A stretch of 64,000 nt of DNA from the NCBI RefSeq assembly GCF_007748195.1, contig NZ_CP037920.1, positions 2,543,501 through 2,607,500 of the forward strand, in the 5' to 3' direction. This stretch comes from Gimesia aquarii. GTDB lineage: Bacteria > Planctomycetota > Planctomycetia > Planctomycetales > Planctomycetaceae. A program made the position numbers and the translations under genes. The number at the start of each line of letters is the position of its first letter. Positions within the stretch are counted from its first letter, which is position 1. Of this stretch, positions 12,486 through 49,350 are shown piece by piece. The notes beneath the pieces were generated by a model. The model did no database searches. It saw only the letters and a program-made list of their open reading frames with translations, and was not told the origin of the DNA.

Positions 12486-12962
12486 TCAAACGATAGGATC
12501 ATCATCGTTCTCTTCGGAATCGCGTTTTAAAGATTCTTCAAACAGTAATTGCCGATCAGAAAATCCTTCGTCCAAATGATGCCAGTAGGCGATTTCTTCT
12601 TCACCATATTTCCAGCAGAGGCTGATTTCTTTACCTTCACGTAAAGCCGGAAAATTGACGACACCCATTCCAGGATCTTCTAACTCTACTCCCAAATCGA
12701 TGAGTTCGGAAACGTATCCTTTGAGTTGCTCCAAATCATTTTCGATGTCCAATTCAGCCTGGATCAGTTCCTCACTATAGGCTGATTCTTCATCGCGAGC
12801 GGAAGCACCCGGTAGCCGCTTGATTTCTGCGATTCGTTCTTGTCGATCATTCAGATTTTGAAAGAGCTCAACAATGTCTTTGACAATCGCTTGCACGAGT
12901 GGTAACCGAAGACTGGCCTCTTCTGGTGTGAAAATCAGCTTTCTTTGTGCTTCAGCATTCAT
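12486..12962 (-). CDS. DUF2203 family protein
   Basis: A 158-residue cytoplasmic protein resembling DUF2203: N-terminal FTPEEASLRLPLVQAIVKDI, helical middle, then LIDLGVELEDPGMGVVNFP, LCWKYGEEEIAYWHH and a Phe/Ser/Asp end. No enzymatic role is known to me. The ATG at 12962 follows AAAGG at 7-nt spacing and is preferred to the longer frame from 12992. It faces the sulfatase gene (40-bp gap, no clear terminator). Confidence 0.8.
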   Translation of the reverse strand: MNAEAQRKLIFTPEEASLRLPLVQAIVKDIVELFQNLNDRQERIAEIKRLPGASARDEESAYSEELIQAELDIENDLEQLKGYVSELIDLGVELEDPGMGVVNFPALREGKEISLCWKYGEEEIAYWHHLDEGFSDRQLLFEESLKRDSEENDDDPIV

Positions 12963-13140
12963 AACAAGACCTTTATTTCTTAAAGAAAGCAATCAACCCA
13001 AAAGTGTTGTTACTTGCTACTCATAATTACTCTTTGCTAATGATTCGAGCTTTGAAGAATTATAAGAGGATCACCAGATTCGGCAAGTCAACACGTTTGA
13101 AGACAGTCGCATTTTTTGTTTCTCTGTTACTTTTGACGTT

Positions 13141-14172
13141 TTAATCTCTATTAATATTACTGGTAAATTCGATGAGATGTTTGAGTTTTTTCAATACTTG
13201 TCCTTCATCGATCAGTCTTGAGACATTTTGAACAGCGTCATGCAGATTTGAGGTCTTTTCCGCTGCCATTAAGGCAGCTGAGGCATTTGCCACAACCATA
13301 TCTCGCGCTGGCCCCTGTTCACCATTAAAGATGTCAAGAATCACTTGCGCGCTTTGTTCTGAGGATTCGACAAGCAACTGACTTACGTCACATTCTGGTA
13401 GTCCAAAATCAGCTGCAGACCATTCATAGGATCGCAAGTCGGAACCAGTTACTTCATGAATCAACGTTTTTCCCCAGAGGCTAATCTCATCAAGTTCTCC
13501 ATTACCACAGACAACCAGTGCATGTTTTCGGCCTAATTTCAGTAATGCTTGAGCAATTTTTTCTGAGGCCTGTACAGAATTTGCCCCCAATAATTGGTAT
13601 TCTGCATTTGCCGGATTCGTTAAAGGCCCCAGGTAATTAAAGATCGTACGAAATCCCAGTTCACGCCGAACAGGGGCCACGTGTTTCATTGCAGAGTGCA
13701 AAAGTGGTGCAAAACAGAATCCAATCCCTGTCTCTTCCAGGCACATTCCAATTTCTGCAGGCGATAAGTCTAAGCGGACTCCTAACGTTTCAAGTACATC
13801 TGACGAACCGCTGGAACTGGAAACACTTCGATTTCCGTGTTTTGCAACAGGAATACCCGCAGCCGCAGCAACGAGTGCAACAGCCGTACTAATATTAAAC
13901 GTGTGAAGCTGATCTCCGCCAGTTCCACAGGTATCCAGGAGCCCTGAGCAATGTGTTGGTATCGCAAGTGCCCGTTCATGCATGGCTTGTGCTGCACCTA
14001 CTAATTCTTCCGAAACTTCACCTTTCATGCGGAGTGCAGTCAAAAAAGCGGCAATTTGTATTTCACTACATTCGCCGCGCATAATAGAGGAGACTGCTTC
14101 GTAAGCAGCAGTTTGTCCCAGGTTTTCTCCCTGAAGTAATTGATCGATCGTTTTTTTCAGAGCTGTCGACAT
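13141..14172 (-). CDS. trpD: Anthranilate phosphoribosyltransferase
   Basis: A 343-residue enzyme joining anthranilate and PRPP in tryptophan synthesis. Diagnostic motifs: DTCGTGGDQLHTFNIST (PRPP-binding glycine-rich loop), AKHGNRSVSSSSGSSDVLE, FCFAPLLHSAMKHVAPVRRE and FNYLGPLTNPA. Length and order match the family. No other trp gene lies nearby, so it is a dispersed trp gene here. The start at 14172 has only a weak ribosome binding site. Confidence 0.97.
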   Translation of the reverse strand: MSTALKKTIDQLLQGENLGQTAAYEAVSSIMRGECSEIQIAAFLTALRMKGEVSEELVGAAQAMHERALAIPTHCSGLLDTCGTGGDQLHTFNISTAVALVAAAAGIPVAKHGNRSVSSSSGSSDVLETLGVRLDLSPAEIGMCLEETGIGFCFAPLLHSAMKHVAPVRRELGFRTIFNYLGPLTNPANAEYQLLGANSVQASEKIAQALLKLGRKHALVVCGNGELDEISLWGKTLIHEVTGSDLRSYEWSAADFGLPECDVSQLLVESSEQSAQVILDIFNGEQGPARDMVVANASAALMAAEKTSNLHDAVQNVSRLIDEGQVLKKLKHLIEFTSNINRD

Positions 14173-14463
14173 ATGCTAAAATCCAAATGCCCGAAATAAA
14201 GCTATTCCTGTCCCGGTCCCAAATTGTATCAAGTTATCATGATAGAATCTGCCGATGATCGCGTGAATGGTGAATGTTAAATTTAATTAAACAAAGTCTC
14301 ATTCTCACCTTAGTGACTTGAATCAATTGAAACGAAACTGTCATACTTGTAGGTGTGGGAATCAAATTGGTACAATATCGTCCTAAACTCCTTCAATCAT
14401 TAAATGATCCCCAGATAATTGGTGGGTCAGTTTTATTACAGCGATCAATCTCAGGAGACTCCG

Positions 14464-24949: not shown

Positions 24950-27900
24950 ATGAAGAGCCTGAAGAGATTGTTTGGCCGTAAATCTGCTCGCAAAATTAAT
25001 CGTCGTTTGCCATTTCGGGTCTCTCGCCCGATTGGCTATGCGAGCCATGTCGAACGGCTTGAAGATCGAACTTTACTCGCCAGCAATATTCTGGCTTCGC
25101 TCGAAAGTTCAGTAAATCAGCCCAATGACACGACGGAACTGACCCTGAATGTCGGGCCAGGTAGTTCACCCACATTGGGATTTGAAGTTAGAGCGGCCGC
25201 CAACTCTGTCTTTGATCCGGCAGCGATCCGCATTTTCGATGCTAATACAAATGCAGTTGTTCCCCTAGAACTCGCTGAAAATGATCATAATGGTTCGACG
25301 AACTCACTTGCCTTGGCTACTTTGAGTCCTAGTACTTCATACCGAATCGAAGTCAATGGGCAAACTTCTGACATCGGTGGTTTTATTGTTGATGTGTTCC
25401 TACCCGGTGACATGGATGGTAGTGGTTCTGTTTCTGATACCGAACGACTACACGCATTTGTAGCCATGCAACAGCATCTATTTGGTTTCAATGGTGTCAC
25501 ACCTCACTTGGTACAGCAACTGGGATTGGACCCCAGCGCCAGCTTCTATTCAGAAGAGTTAGATGGTGACAGAGATGGTGACGTCGATAATTACGATTTG
25601 GAATTGGTGGAAGGAAATCAAAACCTCCCCGCCGTTCAACTCGAACTGATTGGTGATCAGGATGCACCTCAGATCATTGCTGGTTTGCAAATCGATTCCG
25701 GTGTTTCCGATTCCGATGGGATCACTAACGATTTAACCATCTTGGGGAATATCTCTGATGAGAGCTTGATTACACAATTTAAAGTAGGACTGGATGGCGC
25801 TCCCCTGGTCGATTTCGTTGATATTTTCCCACTCATTTCTGGTGGTGCGAATGGTGGCTCGTTTACGCTTTCTCGTAGTTGGATAGAGACCAATCTGAAT
25901 AATGGAAATTCTCTGGAGGGCGGCACGCATACTCTCAGCTTCTTTGCACAGGATGAGCATGACAACAATAATGTCGATTCCTTCTTCGATGTGACTTTCG
26001 AGTTGGATGTAACCGATCCCACTGTTACAGGAACACAGATTACAAATCAGAATGAAGATGAAGATTTTGGTTCACTGGATCTGGGACCTCTGACCAACTT
26101 CTTCAATCAGAACGGTGGAACGGCACTCAGCTTCCAGGTCGATAGTATCACGAATCCGATTGTCACCGTGGACTTCTCGTCTGGAAATTTAGTCTTGAAC
26201 TCTATTCAGGATGCCTTTGGCTCAACTGACATTGTGATTCTGGCAATGGATTTAGCTGGTAACTCTGTTCTCTCAAATTTATTTTCCGTTGATGTAAATC
26301 CACAGAACGATGCGCCAGTCGCCATCGATGATGCTTTTACGACAGACGAAGACACGGTATTGAACGGTGGCAGCAATGTATTTGCCGCGAACCCCACAAC
26401 GCCTGATTCGGATGTCGAAAACGACCCCTTCACTGTTACTGAAGTCAACGGAAATGCTGCGAGTGTCGGCAATCAGATCACACTAACATCGGGAGCACTG
26501 TTGACTCTCAACTCGGATGGTACATTTACTTATAATCCCAACGGTCAGTTTGAGTATTTGGCTGCTGGGGCATCGGCAACTGATAGTTTTACGTATACCA
26601 TTGATGATGGCACAGGCAACTTGATTACGACCGATACGGCCACGGTGACGATCACGATCAACGGTGTGAACGATGACGCCTTGATTGGTGGTGACAATGC
26701 GGGTGACATGACGGAAGACGAAGCCGGTGACAGCGGCACGCTGACAATTACGGACGTGGATGATGGGGAAGATGTGTTTGTGACACAGTCATCGACAGTG
26801 GGGACACATGGTACCTTCTCGATTGACGCGGCCGGCAACTGGACCTATACCCGGACAGCGGATCTGAATGCGTTGAATGCCGGGGATCAAGTCACCGACA
26901 CGTTCACTGTGACCTCCAGCGATGGTACGGCGACCGAGGATGTGACGATCACGATCAATGGTCTGAACGATGACGCCTTGATTGGTGGTGACAATGCGGG
27001 TGACATGACGGAAGACGAAGCCGGTGACAGCGGCACGCTGACGATTACGGACGTGGATGATGGGGAAGATGTGTTTGTGACACAGTCATCGACAGTGGGG
27101 ACACATGGTACCTTCTCGATTGACGCGGCCGGCAACTGGACCTATACCCGGACAGCGGATCTGAATGCGTTGAATGCCGGGGATCAAGTCACCGACACGT
27201 TCACTGTGACCTCCAGCGATGGTACGGCGACCGAGGATGTGACGATCACGATCAATGGTCTGAACGATGACGCCTTGATTGGTGGTGACAATGCGGGTGA
27301 CATGACGGAAGACGAAGCCGGTGACAGCGGCACGCTGACGATTACGGACGTGGATGATGGGGAAGATGTATTTGTGACACAGTCATCGACAGTGGGAACG
27401 CATGGTACCTTCTCGATCGATGCGGCTGGCAACTGGACCTATACCCGGACAGCGGATCTGAATGCGTTGAACGCCGGGGATCAAGTCACCGACACATTCA
27501 CCGTGACCTCCAGCGATGGTACGGCGACCGAGGATGTGACGATCACGATCAATGGTCTGAACGATGACGCCTTGATTGGTGGTGACAACGCGGGCGATAT
27601 GACGGAAGACGAAGCCGGTGACAGCGGCACGCTGACAATTACGGACGTGGACGATGGGGAAGATGTATTTGTGACACAGTCATCGACAGTGGGAACGCAT
27701 GGTACCTTCTCGATCGATGCGGCTGGCAACTGGACCTATACCCGGACTGCGGATCTGAATGCGTTGAACGCCGGGGATCAAGTCACCGACACATTCACCG
27801 TGACCTCCAGCGATGGTACGGCGGAGGATGTGACGATCACAATCAATGGTGTGAACGATCCTCCGGTCGCGGAAGCGGATGCGTTTACGACGGACGAAGA

Positions 27901-30900
27901 CACGAGTACCGGCGGTGATCTGTTTGCCGATAACGGGAGTGGTGTGGACAGCGATCCGGACAGTAGCGCGAGTTTCACAATCACGGAAGTCAATGGTGTA
28001 TCCGGTGATGTGAATAACCCGATCATTCTGGCATCGGGTGCGACGCTGACAGTGAATTCCGATGGTACGTTTACTTACGATCCTTCAAGTTCGAGCCAGT
28101 TCAATGCTCTGGCAGCCGGTGCGCAGGACACGGACAGCTTCAGTTATACGATCGACGATGGGTTGAGTGGTACAGATACAGCCACGGTGACGATTACAAT
28201 TAATGGTGTGAATGATCCTCCGGTCGCGGAAGCGGATGCGATTACAACGGACGAAGACACGAGTACCGGCGGTGATCTGTTTGCCGATAACGGGAGTGGT
28301 GTGGACAGCGATCCGGATAATGGGGCGAGTTTCACGATCACGGAAGTGAATGGTGTATCAGGTGATGTGAATAATCCGATCGTCCTGGCATCGGGTGCGA
28401 CGTTGACAGTGAACGATGATGGTACTTTCAGCTACGATCCTTCAAGTTCGAGCCAGTTTAATGCTCTGGCAGACGGTGAGCAGGGCACGGACAGCTTCAG
28501 TTATACGATCGACGATGGGCTGAGTGGTACGGATACGGCCACAGTGACGATCACGATCAACGGTGTGAACGATCCCGTCACAGCACAAGATGACGCTGTC
28601 ACGACTAGCAAAAACAACACGATTGAGATTGATGTAACAGCCGACAATGGGAATGGTCCTGATACGGATCCTGATACGAACGATGTATTGACGGTGATTG
28701 TAATTGACGGTCAAAACGTTACTTTAGGTCAGACGATCACATTAAGTGGAGTGGATTCGGTCGCTACAGTCACACTCAATAATAATGGGACCCTAACCTA
28801 TGATCCAAATGGCCAATTCGATGGTTTAAATCTACCTTCAGAGACAGCGACGGATACATTTACCTATACGATTGATGATAATAATGGTTCAACTTCGAGT
28901 GCTACAGTAACTGTTACCGTCACTGGTAGTAATGAATTATTGCAAGTGACGAATGAGTTGCCTGATATCTCTCGGGATGGTCTGACAACCGAAATCATCA
29001 ACTTGGACAACCATTTTGATGATGCTGATCCCGGTGACGTAGTCAGTTACAGCGTTTTCTCCGCAACTCTGGTTGGTGGAGATCCTTTGCCGGCAAACTT
29101 CTGGGCGAATAATATCTTTATTTCCGGAATTGATTCAAATGAATTGCATATCGAATATAGTGATTACGCTGCGAACCAGGTTCGTCTTCCTGTAGAAATT
29201 ACTGTTCAAGCATCTTCAAGTGACGGGATCTCGAATCCTGTTACCAGTACGTTTATTTTATCTCCTGATCCTCAGGAAACAGTTGATATTCGACTGATAG
29301 CTCGTTCTACAGCATCTTCAGGCCGTGACTTTACTTATTTCCGGGCTGAGCGATCTTTTGAACAAATTATAACTGAAGCGGGTGCAGGACAATTCCATCT
29401 CATAAATAATGGACAGGATTTGGACTATACAATCTTTCTGAATAGCTATGACATTGACCTGAATACTGATTTGCAAGCAGTACGGATAATCGATACATCA
29501 GATGGAGATGCGGTTCAATTTACAATTTTCAATAAAGTAGCTGCTGATGATAATCCGGTAATCGACACGTCAATAGGTGTTAATACTCTGTCAGGAACAT
29601 GGACTGCTGGTGAAGGATTGACAAGCGAGATTATAGACAAACTCTACAATGGAGTTTTGGCAATTCAAGTAGAGGAAGTAGGAGGTACAATCAGCATTGC
29701 TTCCGGTAATAATATTACTGTTTCACCAGAAGTTGATGATGTTAATAATCTACCAACGGGACAGACTGAATTTTTCACAGAAGAAGATTACGTAATAGAG
29801 ATCTGGATCAGCGATCGACTGTCTCAAGTTTTAGCAGGACAATCAACGACTGGTTTATCTGGTATTACATTTGATCTAACTTGGGAAGGAGAAGGCAATA
29901 TTCCCCAAGCTCTGCAGTCATTCGCTGGAAATGGGGCTAGCGCCTTCCATTTACTTCCAGATGTAGCTAACCCTGATAATGACAATAATATCGTTGCTGA
30001 TTTCCGAGGTTCGGGAATTAATCCTGGTGTTGGAGACGGGCCACGCTATGCAAGAGTCGGTTACGTATCATTCAACGCAGACTCTGAAACGCCTGTGGGG
30101 AATCCAGTTGATTACACGATTAATTTTAGTGCAGGTGATTCTGTTTCTAGAAATGGTGTCGGAGAGATTGATCTCAGTCAAATTTCAATCGTTGGGGCTG
30201 CGGTTACTCATCTTCCGACTCAGGAGTTTCTTGTTCAAACAGATCAAAGCAGTATCTCTGTTTCAGGGACTGTAGACCTTAATGGCGAAATAGTGAATTT
30301 AACCCCTCAGGCTGTTGGGCTAGATGAAGCTAGCATGAGTGGTCGTTTCAATGTTTCTCTCGATGATCTTGATAATCCGACGATGATTCAAATTGTAAAT
30401 TCATTTGTCGAACTCAATCCTTCTGGTTTAGCAATTCCAAATCGTGGTGCAACTGGTGGACTAAGTGATTTTGATTTAGCCGATTTCGGTTTGGTAGGAA
30501 ATAGTACAAATGGTCCATTAAATATTGCCTTACGAGATGCAATTGCTGCAGTATTTTCCAGTCAACAGTCTCTCTCTGGTGGATCATTCGATATTACAGA
30601 AGCATGGCAACTTGAGAATGGGCAAATAGATTCATTTCTCGTGGTAGGTGGTAATTTTCCAGTAAACGAAAACTCAGAGTCGACGAATGGTCTTTCAATG
30701 ACCTTCTTTGATCCCCAAACAACTCCTCCTGCTGGGTTAGCTTCATGGAGTCATGCAGAATTGACTGAAGTATCACCGGGAATCTACGAATTGATTATTC
30801 CAATCAGTCGTAGAATTTCATTTACCGATTCAAACGGAGCTGTGATTGAATTAGATTTCGTTGGATCTATCGCAACTATATTCAACTCTGATCAATCGGA

Positions 30901-33262
30901 TCAGTTTGGTGATACCATTGCTACTGCGGAAGAAACCGGACTGTCATCTTCTAATCTAGGGACACAGGTTTTTCAGGGAACGATTGGTAATAACAGCTCG
31001 CTAGATGATCCCCTGACTGATGTGGATATGTTCAAGGTTGAATTAAATGTCGGTGATACTGTCACAGTAGATGTCGATGCAGATATGTTTGGGACTGGAC
31101 TTGATAGTGTGATTTACATTTTTGATTCAAATGGAAATCAGGTTGCATTTTCAGATAATGACTTGGATGCTCCAAATGAATTTCTTATAGATCTCGGAGC
31201 AAAAGATTCATTTGTCTCATTCACGAACCAGACAGGGAGTCAAGACACGTTTTATATTGGTGTGAGTGCTTTGAATGATGCTTTTGATATTTCAACGCCT
31301 TACAATCCAGAGAATCTTGTTGACCGTGATGTTGATAATAATCCAAACGTAAATGTTGATGTATTCGATATTGGCAGTTATGACCTGACTATAAGTGTCA
31401 GTACTGGAGCAGCACCTTTACATGGAACACAAACTGGTACAAACAATGAAGTTTTGACAGAAGGTACTGCCGTTGATCTGGTTGTTGTGCGAAATCAGAC
31501 TGAGATTGATTCAACCGGTCATGTTAATAGTTTGCCAAGCAGTGATACCTGGATCGACGAATGGAGTTCGTTCTGGGTAGAAATCTATATAGAAACCGCT
31601 GATGCAAAAGCAATCACTGAAGCTATGGCAGATTTGAATTACAACACAAACTTCTTTACTGCCACAGAAATTGAATTTGGTAAGGCCTTCGCTGATGATG
31701 GAAAAGCGGTAATTGATGATTCCACTGGCGTCGTGAGTTCATTGAGTGGTACAACAACCATTGAGCGAACAGGAAGCTACAAGAAAGCTCTATTGGCACG
31801 TGTTAAGTTTGAATCGCTGGAGCAGGATGATGTTTCGATTGACTTCGAAGACAAATTCATCGGTCCTCATGCATTGGGACTTTCACTCAGCAATGTCAAC
31901 GTGGGACTGACTGATGATGTTAATACAAACATCATTGTCGGGGATGCCCCTGAAACGGACTTATGGGCCATTGCCTATGATGTAAATGACGATGATACCA
32001 TCAATTTCCGTGATCTAATGATCTTAGCCTCCGTCTATGGCCAGAACGTACTCGATACGAACTCTCCCTATGTCTGGGCCCTCGATGCCGATAAAAGTGG
32101 TTCAGTTAACTTTAAAGATTTGTCGTTCTTTGCCACCAACTATGGGGTGTATAAAGGTGGTAATAGAGAAGTCGTTTATCCTTCAAACTTCCTGCAACGT
32201 TGGTATGGTAACACAACCGACATTACCGGTGATTCTTCTATAGATGATGTAATGCAGGAGGCTCTCGGAATCTGGCAGGATGCATTAGGGCTGGAACAAC
32301 CGCTTGATATTCAACTGGTAATTACCGATCTGGGGGGAACCCAGTTGGGTGAGGGGCAGATTACGGCCGTCGATGAAGAGGGACGTCCCATTGCCGGGAT
32401 TGTGACGCTCGATGATGATGCAGCCGGATTAGGCTGGTATTCTGATATCAGCACCACAGCCTTTGGCGGTACTGAATTGGAGGGGGGAGTCGCTCATACT
32501 GCTGATAGTAATTCGGACGCAGTCGGCCGATATGACTTGCTGACGGTATTACTACACGAAATTGGTCACGTCGCCGGGTTTACTCAAACGTATGCACCAT
32601 TCGGCAGTCATGTCGAAGTGGGTGTGGGTGGAACTTTAAGCTTCGTCGGTAGCGGATTTGAAGCGACATTGACGAATGACGGTTTACACCTGGATGAAAC
32701 TGTTCATGCAGGCGATATCATGAATGCGACCTTGGATCCGGGAGTTCGCAAACTGCCTTCGGTACTGGATACACTCATTCTGCAGACTGCACATGAAACG
32801 GCGGCTAATGGGAACTTCGAAATTCAGGTTGGTGTCAATGCTCCTCTGATGGCGAATCTGCCGACTACTGATCAGTTAGTAGCAGACTCTGCCATGAATC
32901 AACAGTCAATAGACGTTATCACTGATGTCGAATCGTTTGTTGATTTGGAACCGAGTGTCATCCAAATTTCCAGCAATCTCTCGGATCAGAGCAATCGCGT
33001 GCTATCACAATTCAATCTAGCGTCAAATCTCTTGAATCTTAAAGATTCCGGGTTGGACCAGGACGAACTCGATCTGACGGTACTCGAAGATTTGGTCAGT
33101 GACCTGCGTCAAAATGGATTAGCAATTGTGGGAAGTGGTGAAACGAACACTGTTTTTGACTCTGATTTGGATGAGACAGAACTGGATCTATTCGGTTTGG
33201 ATGAACGAGTTGAAGCCGGATTTGATGACGTCTTCTCTGACTGGACAGGACCAATTCTCTAG
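24950..33262 (+). CDS. Giant multi-domain extracellular protein with cadherin/VCBS-like repeats and a zincin-like end
   Basis: A 2770-residue protein. Residues 1-45 are basic and end in the planctomycete-type motif LEDRTLLA (about 37-44), taken as an export/surface signal. Next come a dockerin-like Ca-binding segment (about 152-222, GDMDGSGSVS and DGDRDGDVD), Ig-like modules, then a repeat block (about 453-1327): one copy, four near-identical 99-residue VCBS-like repeats, two 119-residue repeats and a terminal copy. Later parts include a PPC-like domain (about 1980-2150, DVDMFKVELNVGDTVTVDVD), a second dockerin-like pair (about 2341-2401, DVNDDDTINFRDL and DADKSGSVNFKDL), and a zincin-like segment with HEIGHVAGF at 2536-2544. 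Probably a Ca-dependent surface or adhesion protein, possibly with peptidase ancestry. Copy number may vary by recombination. Confidence 0.9.
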   Translation: MKSLKRLFGRKSARKINRRLPFRVSRPIGYASHVERLEDRTLLASNILASLESSVNQPNDTTELTLNVGPGSSPTLGFEVRAAANSVFDPAAIRIFDANTNAVVPLELAENDHNGSTNSLALATLSPSTSYRIEVNGQTSDIGGFIVDVFLPGDMDGSGSVSDTERLHAFVAMQQHLFGFNGVTPHLVQQLGLDPSASFYSEELDGDRDGDVDNYDLELVEGNQNLPAVQLELIGDQDAPQIIAGLQIDSGVSDSDGITNDLTILGNISDESLITQFKVGLDGAPLVDFVDIFPLISGGANGGSFTLSRSWIETNLNNGNSLEGGTHTLSFFAQDEHDNNNVDSFFDVTFELDVTDPTVTGTQITNQNEDEDFGSLDLGPLTNFFNQNGGTALSFQVDSITNPIVTVDFSSGNLVLNSIQDAFGSTDIVILAMDLAGNSVLSNLFSVDVNPQNDAPVAIDDAFTTDEDTVLNGGSNVFAANPTTPDSDVENDPFTVTEVNGNAASVGNQITLTSGALLTLNSDGTFTYNPNGQFEYLAAGASATDSFTYTIDDGTGNLITTDTATVTITINGVNDDALIGGDNAGDMTEDEAGDSGTLTITDVDDGEDVFVTQSSTVGTHGTFSIDAAGNWTYTRTADLNALNAGDQVTDTFTVTSSDGTATEDVTITINGLNDDALIGGDNAGDMTEDEAGDSGTLTITDVDDGEDVFVTQSSTVGTHGTFSIDAAGNWTYTRTADLNALNAGDQVTDTFTVTSSDGTATEDVTITINGLNDDALIGGDNAGDMTEDEAGDSGTLTITDVDDGEDVFVTQSSTVGTHGTFSIDAAGNWTYTRTADLNALNAGDQVTDTFTVTSSDGTATEDVTITINGLNDDALIGGDNAGDMTEDEAGDSGTLTITDVDDGEDVFVTQSSTVGTHGTFSIDAAGNWTYTRTADLNALNAGDQVTDTFTVTSSDGTAEDVTITINGVNDPPVAEADAFTTDEDTSTGGDLFADNGSGVDSDPDSSASFTITEVNGVSGDVNNPIILASGATLTVNSDGTFTYDPSSSSQFNALAAGAQDTDSFSYTIDDGLSGTDTATVTITINGVNDPPVAEADAITTDEDTSTGGDLFADNGSGVDSDPDNGASFTITEVNGVSGDVNNPIVLASGATLTVNDDGTFSYDPSSSSQFNALADGEQGTDSFSYTIDDGLSGTDTATVTITINGVNDPVTAQDDAVTTSKNNTIEIDVTADNGNGPDTDPDTNDVLTVIVIDGQNVTLGQTITLSGVDSVATVTLNNNGTLTYDPNGQFDGLNLPSETATDTFTYTIDDNNGSTSSATVTVTVTGSNELLQVTNELPDISRDGLTTEIINLDNHFDDADPGDVVSYSVFSATLVGGDPLPANFWANNIFISGIDSNELHIEYSDYAANQVRLPVEITVQASSSDGISNPVTSTFILSPDPQETVDIRLIARSTASSGRDFTYFRAERSFEQIITEAGAGQFHLINNGQDLDYTIFLNSYDIDLNTDLQAVRIIDTSDGDAVQFTIFNKVAADDNPVIDTSIGVNTLSGTWTAGEGLTSEIIDKLYNGVLAIQVEEVGGTISIASGNNITVSPEVDDVNNLPTGQTEFFTEEDYVIEIWISDRLSQVLAGQSTTGLSGITFDLTWEGEGNIPQALQSFAGNGASAFHLLPDVANPDNDNNIVADFRGSGINPGVGDGPRYARVGYVSFNADSETPVGNPVDYTINFSAGDSVSRNGVGEIDLSQISIVGAAVTHLPTQEFLVQTDQSSISVSGTVDLNGEIVNLTPQAVGLDEASMSGRFNVSLDDLDNPTMIQIVNSFVELNPSGLAIPNRGATGGLSDFDLADFGLVGNSTNGPLNIALRDAIAAVFSSQQSLSGGSFDITEAWQLENGQIDSFLVVGGNFPVNENSESTNGLSMTFFDPQTTPPAGLASWSHAELTEVSPGIYELIIPISRRISFTDSNGAVIELDFVGSIATIFNSDQSDQFGDTIATAEETGLSSSNLGTQVFQGTIGNNSSLDDPLTDVDMFKVELNVGDTVTVDVDADMFGTGLDSVIYIFDSNGNQVAFSDNDLDAPNEFLIDLGAKDSFVSFTNQTGSQDTFYIGVSALNDAFDISTPYNPENLVDRDVDNNPNVNVDVFDIGSYDLTISVSTGAAPLHGTQTGTNNEVLTEGTAVDLVVVRNQTEIDSTGHVNSLPSSDTWIDEWSSFWVEIYIETADAKAITEAMADLNYNTNFFTATEIEFGKAFADDGKAVIDDSTGVVSSLSGTTTIERTGSYKKALLARVKFESLEQDDVSIDFEDKFIGPHALGLSLSNVNVGLTDDVNTNIIVGDAPETDLWAIAYDVNDDDTINFRDLMILASVYGQNVLDTNSPYVWALDADKSGSVNFKDLSFFATNYGVYKGGNREVVYPSNFLQRWYGNTTDITGDSSIDDVMQEALGIWQDALGLEQPLDIQLVITDLGGTQLGEGQITAVDEEGRPIAGIVTLDDDAAGLGWYSDISTTAFGGTELEGGVAHTADSNSDAVGRYDLLTVLLHEIGHVAGFTQTYAPFGSHVEVGVGGTLSFVGSGFEATLTNDGLHLDETVHAGDIMNATLDPGVRKLPSVLDTLILQTAHETAANGNFEIQVGVNAPLMANLPTTDQLVADSAMNQQSIDVITDVESFVDLEPSVIQISSNLSDQSNRVLSQFNLASNLLNLKDSGLDQDELDLTVLEDLVSDLRQNGLAIVGSGETNTVFDSDLDETELDLFGLDERVEAGFDDVFSDWTGPIL
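26669..27853 (+). repeat. Four near-identical 297-bp repeats (99 residues each; last 294 bp)
   Basis: Units start at 26669, 26966, 27263 and 27560. Each encodes a VCBS-like module beginning NDDALIGGDNAGDMTEDEAG. Copies 1 and 2 differ at one base I could see; copy 3 is a mosaic of copy 2 (5' part) and copy 4 (3' part); copy 4 lost one codon near its end. Confidence 0.95.
27854..28567 (+). repeat. Two 357-bp repeats (119 residues each)
   Basis: Units start at 27854 and 28211, each beginning NDPPVAEADA and encoding a cadherin-like Ca-binding module with VSGDVNNPI and GTDTATVTITING. They follow the 297-bp repeats directly. Confidence 0.93.
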
Positions 33263-43181: not shown

Positions 43182-44507
43182 ATGAGTAAAACCTTGGCCT
43201 TGGCATTTGCCACTGTGGCGATGTTGGCTGTCAACGATTCCGCTGAAGCTTGCAGGTATTTTGGAGCAGCAAGTTATAACTGTTGCCCTACGGTAGCCTG
43301 CCAACCGACTGCTTGTTATACGGCCTGTCGCGTTGAACGCAAAACATGTTATCGAACTGTTTATGATACTGTTTTAGAGCCTCAGCAGTATACCGCCTAT
43401 CGTACGGAATATGAGACAGTTTATGAAGACAAGCAGGAAACCTGTTATCGCATGGTAAATGAAACTGTTTACCGAGATGAAGAATACACGGTACAGAAGC
43501 CTGTATTTGAAACATCTGAACGTGAAGAACGTTACACAGTGCGACGCCCTGTCATGGAAACGAAGTACCGCGATTGCAGTTACCAGGTACAGCGTCCTGT
43601 GTGGGAAAACCATGAGCGCGAGTGCCGTCGTACGGTAATGCGACCTGTTGTGGAAACAATCGAACAGGAATGCCGACGAACGGTAATGCGTCCAGTGACT
43701 GAAACCGTTAATCAAGAACGTTGTTACACTGTGATGAAACCGGTAACGACATACCGAACCGTCCATCGTTTACGTGGAGTTTGGGAAACTCGTCAAATTA
43801 ACAAACCTGGCAAGTGTCGCCCCTGCTGGTCGACAGATGCGTGTGGACGGCCTGTAATGAGCATGGTGCAAACTCCTGGTCGAACTCACTGCCGTAAGGT
43901 TTGGAGACTGCGAAGAGTTGCCTGTCAGGTTCCTTGCACACGGTATGTTCCTCAGGTCGTTCGTCAGAACTGTCCAGTTCAGGTGACACGATACGTTCCT
44001 GAAGTGATTGTGAACAAAGTGCCTGTTAAAGTTTGTAAAATGGTTCCTGAAGTGGTTGTCACAAAGGTTCCTTACCGAACTTGCCGTTGGGTTACTGAAA
44101 CTGTAGCACAAAAAGTTCCTTATCAGGTTTGTAACTGGGTTTGCGAGGAAAAAGTTCGCAAAGTTCCCGTTCAAACTTGCAGAATGGTTTCTGAGAAGTG
44201 CACCAGAAAAGTCGCTGAGTGTGTTACTCGAAAAGTTCCTTTTACTGTAACACGTCGTATCGCACGTTGCGTTCCTAAACAGGTAGCCGTCAATTGTACT
44301 CGATACGTTTCAAAATGTGTTGCCCGTAAGGTTCCTTACGAAGTTTGCACGATGGTTCCTACGACAGTTTGTCCAACAACTGCCTGTGCAACAGGTGATT
44401 GTAATCTTGCTCCAGAAAGTCGGGAATCGGCCAAGCCAATCGCTCCTAAACCAGAGCCTGAAGCTAATCCGAAAACCGCACCGGCGAAACCAAAGGTTTC
44501 AGCCTGA
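43182..44507 (+). CDS. YTV-type Cys-rich repeat protein of the cell surface
   Basis: A 441-residue protein with signal peptide (LALAFATVAMLAVNDSAEA). The mature part is built of 16-residue repeats. In the first half (about 90-190) units look like EEYTVQKPVFETSERE; in the second half (about 250-395) like VPYRTCRWVTETVAQK. Cysteines occur at fixed positions in the second half, suggesting disulfide or other cross-linking. The composition (Tyr/Thr/Val/Arg) matches the YTV domain described in Rhodopirellula wall proteins. Probably a structural surface protein. Excellent ribosome binding site GGAGG. The C-terminus is Pro/Lys-rich. A bidirectional terminator follows. Confidence 0.85.
   Translation: MSKTLALAFATVAMLAVNDSAEACRYFGAASYNCCPTVACQPTACYTACRVERKTCYRTVYDTVLEPQQYTAYRTEYETVYEDKQETCYRMVNETVYRDEEYTVQKPVFETSEREERYTVRRPVMETKYRDCSYQVQRPVWENHERECRRTVMRPVVETIEQECRRTVMRPVTETVNQERCYTVMKPVTTYRTVHRLRGVWETRQINKPGKCRPCWSTDACGRPVMSMVQTPGRTHCRKVWRLRRVACQVPCTRYVPQVVRQNCPVQVTRYVPEVIVNKVPVKVCKMVPEVVVTKVPYRTCRWVTETVAQKVPYQVCNWVCEEKVRKVPVQTCRMVSEKCTRKVAECVTRKVPFTVTRRIARCVPKQVAVNCTRYVSKCVARKVPYEVCTMVPTTVCPTTACATGDCNLAPESRESAKPIAPKPEPEANPKTAPAKPKVSA
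43479..44370 (+). repeat. 16-residue repeats inside the YTV-type gene
   Basis: Periodicity of 48 bp, protein units of 16 residues (for example CRRTVMRPVVETIEQE and VPVQTCRMVSEKCTRK). The two halves have different consensus; the boundary region near 43760-43930 is non-repetitive. Boundaries are approximate. Confidence 0.8.
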
Positions 44508-44642: not shown

Positions 44643-44978
44643 TTATCTTCCGTTTTCGGAAGGTAGTCCTTCTGCACCACAAACAATGTCACAAGAAGTG
44701 TTTCTGTCACAATCATCAAAAGCATCATCAAACTCACTGCCGAGTACATAACTTTTTGTTTTGCCGCGGCTGCCTGCCCAGAATCCAGTAAATGCATATG
44801 TTTGATTGAGAGCGCCAATGGCGTTAGAAACGTCGTTTAACTCTGTATTGACGGCGACAGCCACTTCGCTTAGACCAACGATCATGGCCAATACAGCAAT
44901 TGTTAAAACCAAGACAAGTTCAGCAGAAACGATAAAGCCTGCTTCGTCATTGTACAGACGGTGCATGATATGCAACAT
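44643..44978 (-). CDS. Pilin-like small protein, array member 1
   Basis: A 111-residue protein. Short polar leader, then the shared hydrophobic core GFIVSAELVLVLTIAVLAM, then VNTELNDVSNAIGALNQ, a loop (FWAGSRGKTKSYVLG) and an acidic Cys-containing tail (FDDAFDDCDRNTSCDIVCG). It is the most divergent of the seven copies, with its own C-terminal extension. AGGGG precedes ATG 44978. It stands alone, 406 bp downstream of member 2, and shares the terminator at 44537-44571. Likely a surface fibre subunit, inferred from the pilin-like N-terminus. Confidence 0.75.
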   Translation of the reverse strand: MLHIMHRLYNDEAGFIVSAELVLVLTIAVLAMIVGLSEVAVAVNTELNDVSNAIGALNQTYAFTGFWAGSRGKTKSYVLGSEFDDAFDDCDRNTSCDIVCGAEGLPSENGR

Positions 44979-45384
44979 TTTTGAGTCCCCTTAAATGGTA
45001 GTAGGCGCCGAAACTTTGACTTTCGGCAGAGTGAGAGAGTGTTTCTTTTCGTGAGAGAGTAGAAAACATTTTTAGCCGATTTGTTTTGAGATATCGCTCA
45101 AACAAAACTGCCGGAAATTATTTACGCAGGGTATGTGCCAAAAGGGCAGTCATGATGAGCAAAACACTAGAATTGAGGATTCAGGAGAGGTTATATCTAT
45201 AGCAATAGATTATATTTACGACTATTTGTGTTTGAAAGGGTTCAAAACATCAATTACAGGCAACTCTTGCGAAATGTAAAGCAAAATGAACATGTTTCTG
45301 TACAAAGTGTTTTACCCTTTGATCGTAAAAAGAGCTATTGTAAAGCTTGAGGGTTTGATACGTTTGGAGTAGATTTTTTTGGAA
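44979..45384. other. Spacer between pilin-like genes 1 and 2
   Basis: About 405 bp, AT-rich. It holds GAAATGTAAA at 45271-45280, matching the motif in the upstream elements near 48564-48573 and 49351-49388, about 300 bp upstream of member 1. No other gene supported. Confidence 0.45.
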
Positions 45385-45735
45385 TTATGGAGTCAAGGCT
45401 TCAGAAGTGGTTACAACAACAGCACCAGTTACCAAATCACAGGTCGTGTTCAGATCACAGTCATCAACAGCGTCATGAAAGCGAGAGCCAGCAACAATGC
45501 TTTTGACTTTGCCATCCACACCATCAATACCAAAAGTACTTCCTAAGAATCCGGTATATGCGTAACTTTGATTCAAAGCTCCGATGGCATTTGAGACATC
45601 GTTCATTTCTGTATTTACAGAAACTGTCACTTCGCTGAGTCCGACGATCATGGCTAAGACAGCAATCGTCAAAACAAGAACTAATTCAGCAGAAATGACA
45701 AATCCACCTTCTTCATGCCATAAAGTATGTATCAT
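45385..45735 (-). CDS. Pilin-like small protein, array member 2
   Basis: A 116-residue paralogue. The start is set at ATG 45735 (MIHTLWHEEGGF), matching its relatives; the open frame reaches 45807 but that extension has no counterpart in most copies and would include the spacer hairpin. Core GFVISAELVLVLTIAV, loop LGSTFGIDGVDGKVKSIVAG, tail DDCDLNTTCDLVTG. It is the third gene of the likely run 4-3-2, preceded by a conserved hairpin at 45759-45789. Confidence 0.75.
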   Translation of the reverse strand: MIHTLWHEEGGFVISAELVLVLTIAVLAMIVGLSEVTVSVNTEMNDVSNAIGALNQSYAYTGFLGSTFGIDGVDGKVKSIVAGSRFHDAVDDCDLNTTCDLVTGAVVVTTSEALTP

Positions 45736-45758
45736 GATTTTTGATTCCGTTTGTGAAA

Positions 45759-45789
45759 GACTCTGTTCAAGAAAATCCCGAACAGAGTC
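45759..45789 (-). other. Conserved spacer hairpin between pilin-like genes 3 and 2
   Basis: Perfect 10-bp stem GACTCTGTTC (45759-45768) / GAACAGAGTC (45780-45789). It lies about 23 nt upstream of member 2's start codon and is followed in the transcript by only TTTC, so partial terminator or mRNA-processing element is possible. Confidence 0.7.
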
Positions 45790-45819
45790 ATCCAAATTAA
45801 TTAACACTCAATTTATAGA

Positions 45820-46152
45820 TTAGGGTGTTTCTGCTACAGTCACACCGGCAACACCTGTGACCAGGTCACAAGTCGTGTTGAGGTCGCAGTCATCAATGGC
45901 ATCATTCCATCGTGAACCAGCAACAACACTTTTCGCTTTTCCATCGCAAAAACTGCTACCTGAAAAGCCTGTGAATGCATAGCTCTGATTCAAAGCTCCG
46001 ATGGCATTTGAGACATCGTTCAATTCTGTATTGACAGAAACTGTCACTTCGCTGAGTCCGACGATCATTGCCAAAACGGCAATTGTCAAAACAAGAACTA
46101 ATTCCGCAGAAATGACAAATCCACTTTCTTCATACAATAAAGCCCGCATCAT
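45820..46152 (-). CDS. Pilin-like small protein, array member 3
   Basis: A 110-residue paralogue starting MMRALLYEESGF at ATG 46152, with AAAGGAAC upstream. Core as in the others (VNTELNDVSNAIGALNQSYAFTGF), loop with one Cys (SGSSFCDGKAKSVVAGSRW), tail DDCDLNTTCDLVTGVAGV. It follows member 4 with an 87-bp spacer that contains the best hairpin of the set. Inferred surface subunit. Confidence 0.75.
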   Translation of the reverse strand: MMRALLYEESGFVISAELVLVLTIAVLAMIVGLSEVTVSVNTELNDVSNAIGALNQSYAFTGFSGSSFCDGKAKSVVAGSRWNDAIDDCDLNTTCDLVTGVAGVTVAETP

Positions 46153-46177
46153 AATATTTGTTCCTTTTATGAAAAAA

Positions 46178-46208
46178 GACTCTGCTCAGGAAAGCTCCTG
46201 AACAGAGT
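46178..46208 (-). terminator. Conserved spacer hairpin with T-run between pilin-like genes 4 and 3
   Basis: 13-position stem (one C-A mismatch, one G-T pair) GACTCTGCTCAGG / CCTGAACAGAGTT with a 5-nt loop. On the minus strand it is followed by six T (46172-46177), so it fits an intrinsic terminator placed between co-directional genes, just ahead of member 3's ribosome binding site. Confidence 0.75.
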
Positions 46209-46239
46209 TGTCCAAATTCAAGAAAAACCCAAATTATGA

Positions 46240-46563
46240 TTAGGGAGTTTCTGCTACAGTCACTCCTCCAACACCTGTAACTAAATCGCAAGTTGTGTTG
46301 AGGTCGCAATCATCAATGGCATCATTCCATCGTGAACCAGCATAGTGGCTCTTAAGTTTTCCACCGTCACCCTGAAAACCAGTGTAAGCATAGCTCTGGT
46401 TTAATGCTCCGATGGCGTTTGAGATGTCATTTAATTCAGTGTTAACAGCAACAGCAACTTCGCTCAGTCCAACGATCATAGCCAATACAGCGATGGTCAG
46501 AACAAGAACTAGTTCTGCTGAAATTACGAAACCTGCTTCATCATTCCAAAGTTGATTTAACAT
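46240..46563 (-). CDS. Pilin-like small protein, array member 4
   Basis: A 107-residue paralogue, MLNQLWNDEAGF start at ATG 46563 with AAGGAA upstream. It is closest to members 6 and 7 in N-terminus and leader. Short loop QGDGGKLKSHYAGSRW and tail DDCDLNTTCDLVTG. It heads the likely transcript 4-3-2. Confidence 0.77.
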   Translation of the reverse strand: MLNQLWNDEAGFVISAELVLVLTIAVLAMIVGLSEVAVAVNTELNDISNAIGALNQSYAYTGFQGDGGKLKSHYAGSRWNDAIDDCDLNTTCDLVTGVGGVTVAETP

Positions 46564-47370
46564 TCTAGTGAGTTCCTTGGTTTTTAAAATTAATTGAGAG
46601 ACTAACTTGAGGATTGATTTCTATAACTCTGAAAAAAGAAAATTCAGATGAGAAAACAATCCACAACAAAAAATAAATATTACGGGTGTAATATCTATCC
46701 CTGAACCGGAATATGAGCGTTAGCTCCATTCAGGCACATGTGTGAAATTACTGGCCGGTAATTTCACGGTACAAACTGCAGTATTGTTTCTTTGAATGAT
46801 CCAGTAAGCACACGTTATGACCCGTGGAGCAATGGAAGCCCAGTAAATGACGTAGTTAACATCATTTGCATTGGATGCTCTCTCACCTTCATACAATGCA
46901 GATGGCTTCTCTTCTTCTTTCGGGGACAAATCACATGAAAATGAAGAAGCCTCAACACGGGTCACAACGCTGCGAATCAATGAGTGATTTCTATTTGCTA
47001 ACTCAGATCTATGTATTTCTTCTTATTGAATTTGAATCGACTTATTTTACTCCGCTCGATTCATGTCGCAGTCGGTGTGCCAGATCTTGGTGAAGAATTG
47101 ATTACAGAACTCCACAGAGGGTGTGTTACAAAAGAAACACGTCTATGAAATCGATACAAATGTAATCAGCAATAGAATTTAGATAGAGTGACTTTGAGTG
47201 AGTGACAAAGACGTAGAAAGAGTGGTTGGTTGCTTTTAGGCAACCTGTCTTATCAATGATTTTGAACAGTGTGTTAAAGAGACTGTCAAAATATTGAGTG
47301 TATTTTAAACATGGAAACCAGTTAGAGGAGTTCGTTCTCTAATTAGGTCTGGTTCCAATTGTGAGGATTA
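46564..47370. other. Leader of pilin-like gene 4 and spacer
   Basis: About 807 bp. The first 150 bp resemble the leaders of members 6 and 7 (e.g. GAGTTCCTT near the start codon side). An 86-codon frame (46720-46980, minus) has no conserved counterpart in the related leaders; I treat it as doubtful. Confidence 0.45.
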
Positions 47371-47715
47371 TTACGGAGTTTCAGCTACAGTGACAGCAGC
47401 GGCACCAGTAACTAAATCACAGGTGGTGTTCAGGTCGCAGTCATCGACTGCATCGTTAAATCTGGAACCTTCAACTACGCTTTTTAGTTTACCGCCGACT
47501 CCATCAACGCCTCGAGAACTTCCTGTAAAACCTGTATAGACAAAACTCTGATTTAAAGCTCCGATGGCATTTGATATGTCATTTAATTCTGTGTTAACAG
47601 CAACAGCAACTTCGCTCAGTCCGACGATCATAGCTAAAACGGCAATCGTCAGTACCAGGACTAACTCTGCTGAAATCACAAATCCACTTTCTTCATGCCA
47701 TAAAGCGCGCATCAT
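47371..47715 (-). CDS. Pilin-like small protein, array member 5
   Basis: A 114-residue paralogue. ATG 47715 (MMRALWHEESGF) follows AGGAA; the frame extends to 47760 through the spacer hairpin, which I discard. Loop TGSSRGVDGVGGKLKSVVEG is the long type shared with member 2. Tail DDCDLNTTCDLVTG. It follows member 6 (68-bp spacer). Confidence 0.75.
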   Translation of the reverse strand: MMRALWHEESGFVISAELVLVLTIAVLAMIVGLSEVAVAVNTELNDISNAIGALNQSFVYTGFTGSSRGVDGVGGKLKSVVEGSRFNDAVDDCDLNTTCDLVTGAAAVTVAETP

Positions 47716-47727
47716 TTTGTTCCTAAA

Positions 47728-47758
47728 GACTCTGTCCAGGAAAACCCTGAACAGAGCC
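47728..47758 (-). other. Conserved spacer hairpin between pilin-like genes 6 and 5
   Basis: Stem GACTCTGTCCAGG / CCTGAACAGAGCC with two mismatches, same core as the hairpins at 45759 and 46178. In the transcript it ends 4 nt before the AGGAA ribosome binding site of member 5, so it could block or expose it. Confidence 0.65.
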
Positions 47759-47783
47759 ATTCAAATCTAACTTATAAATCGAA

Positions 47784-48107
47784 TTATGGAGCTTCTGCTG
47801 CAGTAACAGCACCAGCACCGGTAACCAGATCACAAGTTGTGTTTACGTCACAGTCATCGACTGCATCATTAAATCGTGATCCAGCGTATCGACTTTTGAG
47901 CTTTCCTCCGTTACCAAGAAAACCAGTATAAACATAGCTCTGGTTTAAGGCTCCGATGGCGTTTGAGATATCATTTAATTCTGTGTTAACAGCAACAGCA
48001 ACTTCGCTCAGTCCAACAATCATGGCCAATACGGCGATAGTCAGAACGAGAACCAGTTCTGCAGAGATTACGAAACCAGCTTCGTCATTCCAAAGTTGAT
48101 TCAACAT
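47784..48107 (-). CDS. Pilin-like small protein, array member 6
   Basis: A 107-residue paralogue, MLNQLWNDEAGF at ATG 48107 with AAGGAA upstream. Short loop LGNGGKLKSRYAGSRF and tail DDCDVNTTCDLVTGAGAV. It heads the likely transcript 6-5. Its leader shares blocks with those of members 4 and 7. Confidence 0.77.
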   Translation of the reverse strand: MLNQLWNDEAGFVISAELVLVLTIAVLAMIVGLSEVAVAVNTELNDISNAIGALNQSYVYTGFLGNGGKLKSRYAGSRFNDAVDDCDVNTTCDLVTGAGAVTAAEAP

Positions 48108-48712
48108 GTTGTGAGTTCCTTAATTTTTAACTTGAGAGTAAATAAATTCGATTCAGATCAAAAGATCATAAATCACGAGAGGCAATCCCTATTTGAAACC
48201 ACATAGAGATTCAGCATCAGCCATTGACTGTTCAGAGAAGCCAAATTGGCTTATCAGATACATCCAATAACCGGGAACTTGAGTCGACCGAACGGAAATA
48301 TGAGAACCGGTTACTCACATAGCGTTTGGGGATAGGAACCAGTGATTCACGGGCCCATTTCACAGAATTCCCTGTCTGCTGATCGAGATGATCGCACAGG
48401 TTATGCCATAGGGTTAATCTTTACAGACCCTACAAAGCACAAATGTGGAAGAGTTTACCTAACGTCTTTTATTGCTCAAGTTTAACAATTGTTAGCCTAA
48501 GTAACTCGTGGTAAGAACGGCGAGTTGAGGATTAGACATTGTAAAAATATTGAAACACTTCTTTTACATTTCATGTTTACGAATTCCTACAAAGACTTAC
48601 ATTGAATATAACTTCTCCCTAAAACATGAACTCCGGAAGAGATGTATCTCTTCCAGAGTCCTGCCTCTCAAGTATTTTAAAAACTAAGGGTTTTTATCTT
48701 CCCTTTAGATGT
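48108..48712. other. Leader of pilin-like gene 6
   Basis: About 605 bp between member 7's stop and member 6's start, with a ~59-bp element at 48551-48609 that recurs at 49367-49424. The rest shares patches with other array leaders. No supported gene. Confidence 0.5.
48551..48609. repeat. Upstream element of pilin-like gene 6 (direct repeat copy 1)
   Basis: About 59 bp, near-identical to 49367-49424 with one 1-base gap and a few substitutions (shared core CACGTTTACGAATTCCTACA-like; TGAAACACTTCT at one end). It contains TTACATTTCA at 48564-48573. Confidence 0.8.
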
Positions 48713-49039
48713 TTAGAAGCCTGTCTCTATTCCAGTCACAAAGATCGCGCCTGTTACCAGATCACAAGTGGTGTTCAGGTCGCAATCATCAATGGCATCG
48801 TCCCATCGCGAACCAGCATAGAAGCTCTTGAACTTCCCTCCATTTCCACGAAAGCCTGTATAAACATAGCTTTGATTCAGGGCTCCAATAGCGTTTGAGA
48901 TGTCGTTTAATTCCGTGTTAACAGCAACAGCAACTTCGCTGAGTCCAACGATCATGGCCAGCACAGCGATCGTCAGTACCAGGACCAGTTCCGCAGAGAT
49001 AACGAAACCGGCTTCGTCATTCCAAAATTGATTTAACAT
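48713..49039 (-). CDS. Pilin-like small protein, array member 7
   Basis: A 108-residue paralogue, MLNQFWNDEAGF at ATG 49039 with AAAGGAAC upstream. Short loop RGNGGKFKSFYAGSRW, tail DDCDLNTTCDLVTG, ending IFVTGIETGF. It stands alone in front of its own leader, which resembles that of member 6. Confidence 0.77.
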   Translation of the reverse strand: MLNQFWNDEAGFVISAELVLVLTIAVLAMIVGLSEVAVAVNTELNDISNAIGALNQSYVYTGFRGNGGKFKSFYAGSRWDDAIDDCDLNTTCDLVTGAIFVTGIETGF

Positions 49040-49350
49040 GTTTGAGTTCCTTTACTTCGTAATTAGAGAGTAATACCGATTCGATTCAGACTGAGAAATC
49101 ATGAATCGTGAGAGACTACAATAAGGAAATGAGAACCAGTTCACTCATATTCCAGTTGGGGAGAAGAAATCAGTTATATTGAGAATTTCAAATCCACCGG
49201 TTGTATCGATTGCACAGATCATGCCGGATGTTCTGTTTTTATCGATAGTTTGGAATACCATATAGATGAATTTCTCTAACACATTTGCTATTCAAAGTTA
49301 ACAGCTCATTTTTTATATAAACACAATTGAACTTGATTGAAAAATTTTTT

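Follow-up and report, generated by a model that had tools for sequence, protein, structure and literature searches.

What does a planctomycete do with seven similar genes for very small proteins arranged in tandem, and which machinery handles their products? The question is raised by a stretch of 64,000 nucleotides of the Gimesia aquarii genome (contig NZ_CP037920.1, positions 2,543,501 to 2,607,500; hereafter the window), in which an earlier reading, the original prediction, had placed seven minus-strand open reading frames (ORFs) encoding 107 to 116 residues between window positions 44643 and 49039 and had taken them for pilin-like paralogues. All seven ORFs (p1 to p7, Table 1) are present at these coordinates. 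The evidence assembled here favors, with a probability of about 0.8, the reading that their products are prepilins belonging to a divergent branch of the Tad (type IVc, Flp-like) pilins in planctomycetes, the array supplying alternative subunits to the tad3 machinery described below.

The seven array proteins have a mean column identity of 79% in an alignment, and for two of them an upstream extension by other start codons is possible. The shared hydrophobic core that the original prediction had recognized (SAELVLVLTIAVLAMIVGL) is identical in all seven, and the motif VNTE[LM]ND[IV]SNAIGALNQ and the C-terminal tail, in the form DDCDxNT[ST]CD, likewise occur in every copy. Each protein contains two or three cysteines, including a CxxxxxC pair at DDCDxNT[ST]C in all seven. 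The further proposal that the copies differ mainly in the loop between TGF and GSR stood only in part: the loop does vary, but so do the leader and the C-terminal tail, and the GSR motif, held by the other copies, is replaced by GSE in the copy at 44643. Since synonymous divergence (dS) between copies is at least 0.7, past correction for many of the 21 pairs, while pairwise nonsynonymous divergence (dN) of the N-terminal part is only 0 to 0.15, the array genes are old duplicates that have been selectively maintained. When four positional groups were compared among Gimesia genomes, the ratio of nonsynonymous to synonymous polymorphism (pN/pS) was 0.012 to 0.058 in the helix and 0.15 to 0.28 after it. 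The helix is under extreme constraint, and the copies are maintained by selection.

Arrays of four to nine copies recur in nine other Gimesia genomes (our handles G and L denote genomes and loci), so that chance is not the explanation of the array. Five copies were found in G001, seven in G002 as in the genome analyzed here, nine each in G004, G009 and G012, and four each in G007 and G014; G013 and G016 each have four together with a further, divergent copy. In a tree of 62 array copies (110 columns, 17 forks open) from these ten genomes, which are related and of which G002 is almost equal to our own, p7 and its counterparts formed a single clade (support 100/98) and many of the remaining copies grouped by lineage. 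Judging from this tree, the array appears to have evolved by birth and death of copies around p7 as a fixed end gene. The wider family has 17 matches in the single-contig 7.4-Mb genome of G. aquarii, the weakest being a Flp-like ORF, and between 4 and 20 in each of 17 Gimesia genomes, our own included. Again counting our own, it was detected in 30 of 40 genomes of a set of relatives (E<=0.001) and in eight of 159 genomes across the phylum, all of one class (E<=1e-6).

The N-termini of these proteins resemble those of prepilins with one systematic shift. In the seven array proteins the leader preceding the glycine is 11 to 14 residues long, and in place of the class III motif G-x4-E[YF] the family carries G-x5-E[LF], which was found in 134 of 141 members from 78 loci, a share that is biased because the x5 spacing was part of the pattern used to collect the loci; G-x4-E was found in none. 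The remaining seven members comprise three fragments, three sequences with the x5 spacing by eye and one with alanine for glycine. A cut before the phenylalanine of the GF dipeptide would place the conserved glutamate at +6, and a cut after it at the usual +5. An AlphaFold model built from 88 family sequences predicts a single helix at residues 9 to 53 (predicted local distance difference test, pLDDT, 84 to 96 over residues 11 to 50), followed by three short strands of lower confidence. The short leader followed by one long, predicted hydrophobic helix is the layout of Tad pilins in the broad sense.

The original prediction had noted that the window holds neither a pilin ATPase nor a prepilin peptidase, so that assembly genes should lie elsewhere, and indeed no match to T2SSE ATPases or A24 peptidases was found in the window. 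The proposal is well supported by a cpaB-tadABC locus about 2 Mb away that contains paralogues of the array genes, by the conservation of this linkage and by the homology with Flp pilins that intermediate sequences reveal. In this locus, tad3, three family members, t1 to t3 (genome positions 4563525-4563821, 4564062-4564388 and 4564543-4564881), lie directly upstream of cpaB, tadA, tadB and tadC, and CpaB is also recognized by TIGR03177. A gene for a sigma-54-type activator (4557285-4558739) lies alongside. A second locus, tad2 (5910953-5917951), encodes a peptidase, TadE, CpaB, TadG, TadA, TadB and TadC, and no pilin gene was seen in it. Moreover, a canonical Flp pilin (3878889-3879107; PF04964, E 1.2e-8) is encoded beside TadV, CpaB, a secretin (3874480-3876258) and TadZ, and since the genome thus has a canonical Flp as well, the window family represents an additional, divergent pilin lineage. 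Four genes for A24-type peptidases are located at 3.88, 4.70, 5.91 and 6.01 Mb.

The linkage of the family to tad3 is widely conserved. An orthologue of tadA3 was found in 15 of the 16 other Gimesia genomes (89-99% identity; split in two in G001), and two family members lie 1.8 to 1.9 kb from tadA3 in 15 of the 15 Gimesia genomes that have it, with cpaB in between in the five loci that were read. Reading also covered the tadA3-type loci (58-67% identity) of nine genomes outside Gimesia, and family members lie upstream of tadA in eight of these (G017, G019, G020, G026, G028, G031, G033 and G037), of which G026, G031 and G033 are a sample chosen for having pilin and tadC matches on one contig; in the sole miss, G022, the contig ends just past a CpaB-like ORF. 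The loci of G028 and G037 also hold TadV and a secretin, and that of G019 TadV and TadE. Scores for tadC3 were 137 to 189 bits in seven of eight genomes with the family and above 126 bits in none of ten genomes without it, a threshold that was set after the scores had been seen. A position beside cpaB and tadA/tadB/tadC, as is broadly characteristic of Tad pilin genes, was thus found for the tad-locus members of the family and not for the array itself.

Members from two of the most distant of these loci provide a bridge to the Flp pilins. In G026 and G031 they are encoded beside TadV, CpaB, TadG, TadZ, TadA, TadB, TadC and a secretin (in G031 also TadE), and their N-termini, which read WNDEAGNVAIEYLFLA and WKDEAGVISVEYLFLV, show G-x4-EY, the canonical Flp spacing, and after it the window family's DQSY/SQDY segment. 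Their matches to PF04964 were weak (E 0.00068, 0.004 and 0.017) and below the cut-off. Further variants are G-x4-EW in L184 and G-x5-EY in L133. In profile-profile comparison with hhalign, eight tad-locus members matched 19 planctomycete Flp-like sequences with a probability of 95.6 (E 1.2e-8) and 88 members of the window family with a probability of 99.9 (E 1.3e-36). Homology to known Tad pilins was therefore found through intermediates, and judged by these alignments the window family is a divergent branch of the Tad pilins that is homologous by way of them to Flp.

A number of results weigh against this assignment. None of the seven array proteins reached a curated Pfam or NCBIfam cut-off. 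The profile searches against Flp and TadE pilins that the original prediction had proposed as a check gave it no support, with no match to PF04964 at E<=10 for any of the seven, nor at E<=0.1 among 88 family members, and no match to TadE (PF07811) in any of the seven or among the 13 families listed for the 88. A search of PDB sequences with the family profile returned no pilin (best E 0.2), and Foldseek and VIA-align found no pilin among their matches; the model (mean pLDDT 73.4; predicted template modeling score 0.42) is weak beyond residue 50, and the absence of a structural match is uninformative. All seven proteins have the x5 rather than the Flp x4 spacing between glycine and glutamate. 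Their leaders contain no or one lysine or arginine and two acidic residues; typical prepilin leaders are basic. Aligned directly to Flp pilins with hhalign, the window family (probability 38, score 25.9) scored above 120 shuffled alignments (17.8 at most), a result treated as suggestive only, because a reversed control scored nearly as high (23.3 over 15 columns). Neither a peptidase nor a secretin was seen in 18 kb of our own tad3 locus, and tad ATPase and platform genes occurred in only one of 78 family loci taken with up to 8 kb of flanking sequence. Four genomes (G006, G018, G021 and G024; completeness 86-95%) have the family and no tadA3 orthologue at 58% identity or more, and no array-grade match was found in G003, G006 and G015, the last being 74% complete. 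The unit headed by p4 has no good sigma-54 site, and six of 23 short gaps between genes of the ten arrays, all in the middle unit of three nine-copy arrays, folded no better than shuffled sequences. On the other side, the profile searches did not bring up an unrelated enzyme or soluble family, the outcome that had been named as speaking against a pilin. Two weak family matches, to DUF3382 (best Pfam E 0.0078, three of 88 relatives) and to Syntroph_Cxxx (best NCBIfam E 0.00033, seven of 88), were taken as chance.

The promoters point to a connection between the array and tad3. Scored with a matrix written from the consensus, sigma-54-like -24/-12 sites (score of at least 10) occurred at 34 of 39 operon heads, at none of 23 internal genes and in 4.8% of 600 background tiles (500 bp each), where a head is the first array gene or one with at least 400 bp upstream; these counts are not independent, as the genomes are related and the internal gaps short. 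A site is missing from the p4 unit in G000 and G002 and from the fourth-gene unit in G004, G009 and G012, which accounts for all five exceptions. The head of tad3 carries a site scoring 15.6 to 15.8 in all six Gimesia loci scored and of at least 10 in three of five others, and the genome has one match to rpoN. A word shared upstream of p1, p2 and p7 (GAAATGTAA) was considered as an activator site and rejected, being absent from the tad-locus stretch and found close to just one of the scattered paralogues that were read. A sigma-70 scan gave eight sites against a shuffle mean of 13.0, and terminator-like sites numbered seven against 4.1. Within the transcription units, 17 of the 23 short gaps of ten Gimesia arrays fold better than shuffles (z of -2 or lower).

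Which machine would assemble the array products, and in what role, has more than one possible answer. The array might be served by the tad2 machine, since tad2 shows no pilin gene of its own and the pilin-bearing tad3 locus no peptidase; G006, G021 and G024 keep the family without tadA3, G006 and G021 have a tad2-type locus, and in L084 a family member lies about 6.6 kb from a tad2-type tadA. We regard this as rather unlikely, because the sigma-54-like promoters are common to the array and tad3 and not to tad2 (the tadV2 head scores 6.0), none of the three tad2 loci that were read (L038, L190 and L191) shows an adjoining family member, and G006 has tad2-type genes yet no array-grade match. That the copies are minor or tip pilins on a major subunit encoded elsewhere, for instance by t1 or t2 or by the Flp gene at 3878889, has a precedent in the Kil pilus of Myxococcus, for which many-pilin tip sets on one Tad pilus are described (PMC12075869), and the intergenic hairpins could hold downstream genes low. 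This nevertheless seems improbable, as the paralogue helices are nearly identical, as expected for equivalent positions in the fiber body, and sigma-54-like promoters of their own precede several copies.

Gene dosage could likewise explain the array, with functionally equivalent copies whose C-terminal differences reflect drift, and the C-terminal pN/pS given above does indicate purifying rather than diversifying selection on average. However, distinct C-terminal types are kept at high synonymous divergence, p7 remains a separate clade in ten genomes, and dosage arrays tend toward homogenization, which leaves this an unlikely account. It is very improbable that the proteins are not pilins at all and instead small single-pass membrane proteins with an extracytoplasmic tail, of the Sec61-beta or CydH kind: such families gave weak profile matches (Sec61_beta for nine of 88 members, best E 0.011; CydH for six, best E 0.0093), but the prepilin-like Gly-Glu motif, the position at the head of Tad loci in four planctomycete families and the intermediates with a Flp motif argue against it. 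We therefore return to prepilins of a divergent Tad branch, and the array copies are, tentatively, best read as interchangeable subunits of one fiber, which fits the near-invariant helix with its variable C-terminal part, the variable copy number and the shared sigma-54-like promoters.

According to this model, an A24 prepilin peptidase encoded elsewhere would remove the short leader at Gly or Gly-Phe, and the near-invariant helix of about 45 residues would allow any paralogue to join one filament built by TadA3, TadB3 and TadC3, exposing the variable C-terminal region (50-60 residues, with the CxxxxxC pair) on the fiber surface. Polymerization, the cleavage site and the choice of Tad machine are inferred here. 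Lying about 2 Mb from the assembly locus, the array would be a store of subunits that can replace one another. Array and tad3 would probably be turned on jointly by sigma-54 and the activator whose gene adjoins tad3, and the hairpins within the operons may reduce the second and third pilin below the level of the first. The fiber could leave the cell through the secretin encoded at 3874480-3876258 or through another.

Several known systems share parts of this arrangement. Like Flp/Fap pilins (PF04964), the window family has a short leader ending in an acidic pair plus glycine and a long hydrophobic helix with a glutamate near its start, and some of its members are encoded beside cpaB-tadABC; it differs in having G-x5-E[LF] in place of G-x4-E[YF], a mature protein of about 96-105 residues, 50-60 of which follow the helix, with a cysteine pair, and many paralogues, most of them away from tad genes. 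Tad pilins are described as lacking the usual globular beta domain (PMC11067988). The minor pilin TadE (PF07811) is comparable in that the TadE of our own genome has a GFxxxE-type N-terminus and TadE genes occur in some loci with the family. In Haloferax volcanii the pilins PilA1 to PilA6 are paralogues whose hydrophobic domain is almost wholly conserved, and each alone is reported to be able to form a pilus (PMC4371748). A near-identical assembly helix with a differing remainder is also what we found in the window family, although the Haloferax pilins are archaeal and processed by PibD, while the window family forms a tandem array with shared sigma-54-like promoters. In the Kil (Tad) pilus one machine likewise uses many pilins from separate clusters, but its variety resides in interchangeable tips, four complexes of minor pilins carried by one major pilin (PMC12075869), whereas here it lies among pilins with near-identical helices.

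No description of the array or the family was found in the open-licence PMC literature, where the terms gimesia and pilin together returned no papers, and the protein make-up of planctomycete fibers, stalks or crateriform pits was not found described in the literature searched. The window family is a concrete, unnamed candidate for a fiber protein, with a probable machine and a probable regulator. It may be a bacterial counterpart of the archaeal sets of pilins with a common assembly helix, and it appears to document a shift in the register of the conserved glutamate within one pilin lineage. Fibers of 6 and 12 nm are described at the crateriform structures of Planctopirus limnophila (PMC5394234), and the Kil pilus was modeled at about 4.6 nm (PMC12075869). 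That the pilins build thin stalk or holdfast fibers emerging from crateriform structures, the pit being the Tad secretin channel, is doubtful and in our view quite unlikely. In this bolder reading the array would let one machine make fibers of changing subunit composition, and the G-x5-E register would impose on the pilins a packing unlike that of known Tad pili.

Table 1. Array genes, sigma-54-like sites and intercistronic hairpins of the window (window positions).
Feature	Position	Strand	Basis and remarks
p1, putative pilin gene, 108 residues, transcription-unit head	48713..49039	-	ORF and alignment; AAAGGAAC upstream of ATG
p2, putative pilin gene, 107 residues, heads unit p2-p3	47784..48107	-	ORF and alignment
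p3, putative pilin gene, 114 residues from ATG, second in unit p2-p3	47371..47715	-	ORF and alignment; 68-bp gap to p2
p4, putative pilin gene, 107 residues, heads unit p4-p5-p6	46240..46563	-	ORF and alignment; without good sigma-54-like site
p5, putative pilin gene, 110 residues	45820..46152	-	ORF and alignment; 87-bp gap to p4
p6, putative pilin gene, 116 residues from ATG	45385..45735	-	ORF and alignment; 84-bp gap to p5
p7, putative pilin gene, 111 residues, separate unit	44643..44978	-	ORF and alignment; counterparts form one clade, 10 Gimesia arrays
Sigma-54-like -24/-12 site, CGGCATGATCTGTGCA	49211..49226	-	Score 12.4; 187 bp before p1; counterparts in other arrays
Sigma-54-like -24/-12 site, TGGCATAACCTGTGCG	48393..48408	-	Score 11.7; 301 bp before p2; counterparts in other arrays
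Sigma-54-like -24/-12 site, TGGCACATACCCTGCG	45125..45140	-	Score 14.2; 162 bp before p7; counterparts in other arrays
Intercistronic hairpin p2-p3	47728..47758	-	68-nt gap; minimum free energy -24.3 kcal/mol; z -4.8
Intercistronic terminator-like hairpin p4-p5, followed by CTTTTTT	46179..46208	-	z -5.1
Intercistronic hairpin p5-p6	45759..45789	-	z -4.1

Some further observations were made in and around the tad3 loci. An ORF of 81 residues resembling Flp (RGAVFVEYLLLLTIIG) lies at genome positions 4551304-4551546 (L019:3304-3546), about 5.7 kb beyond the sigma-54 activator gene, and weak Flp-like matches of a similar kind were seen near the tad3 locus of G019, G028 and G037. In two planctomycete families, two adjacent genes are found upstream of the pilin genes of tad3, namely L142:11402-12592 (397 residues) and 12592-14304 (571 residues) and their counterparts in L132, L136, L137 and L138 (45-48% and 23-25% identity outside Gimesia); they gave no Pfam or NCBIfam match at E<=0.01 and are possibly part of the machine. 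A tadA-like gene with an internal stop is found at G003:C73:59394-60695, and the split tadA3 of G001 lies at G001:C1:752981-754320.

Among the scattered paralogues, the family genes at genome positions 2856341-2857169 and 7112057-7112747 (L021 and L022) belong to an inverted duplicate of 1203 bp with 98.4% identity, and two such places are present in several other Gimesia genomes too. Next to the array, a 441-residue YTV-repeat protein (PF07639, four stretches) is encoded at window positions 43182-44507 on the plus strand, convergent to the array and 135 bp from p7, and a YTV gene about 92% identical adjoins array-type genes in L046 to L048. Farther away in the window, positions 24950-33262 of the plus strand encode a protein of 2770 residues with four near-identical repeats in succession (NDDALIGGDNAGDMTEDEAGDSG...).

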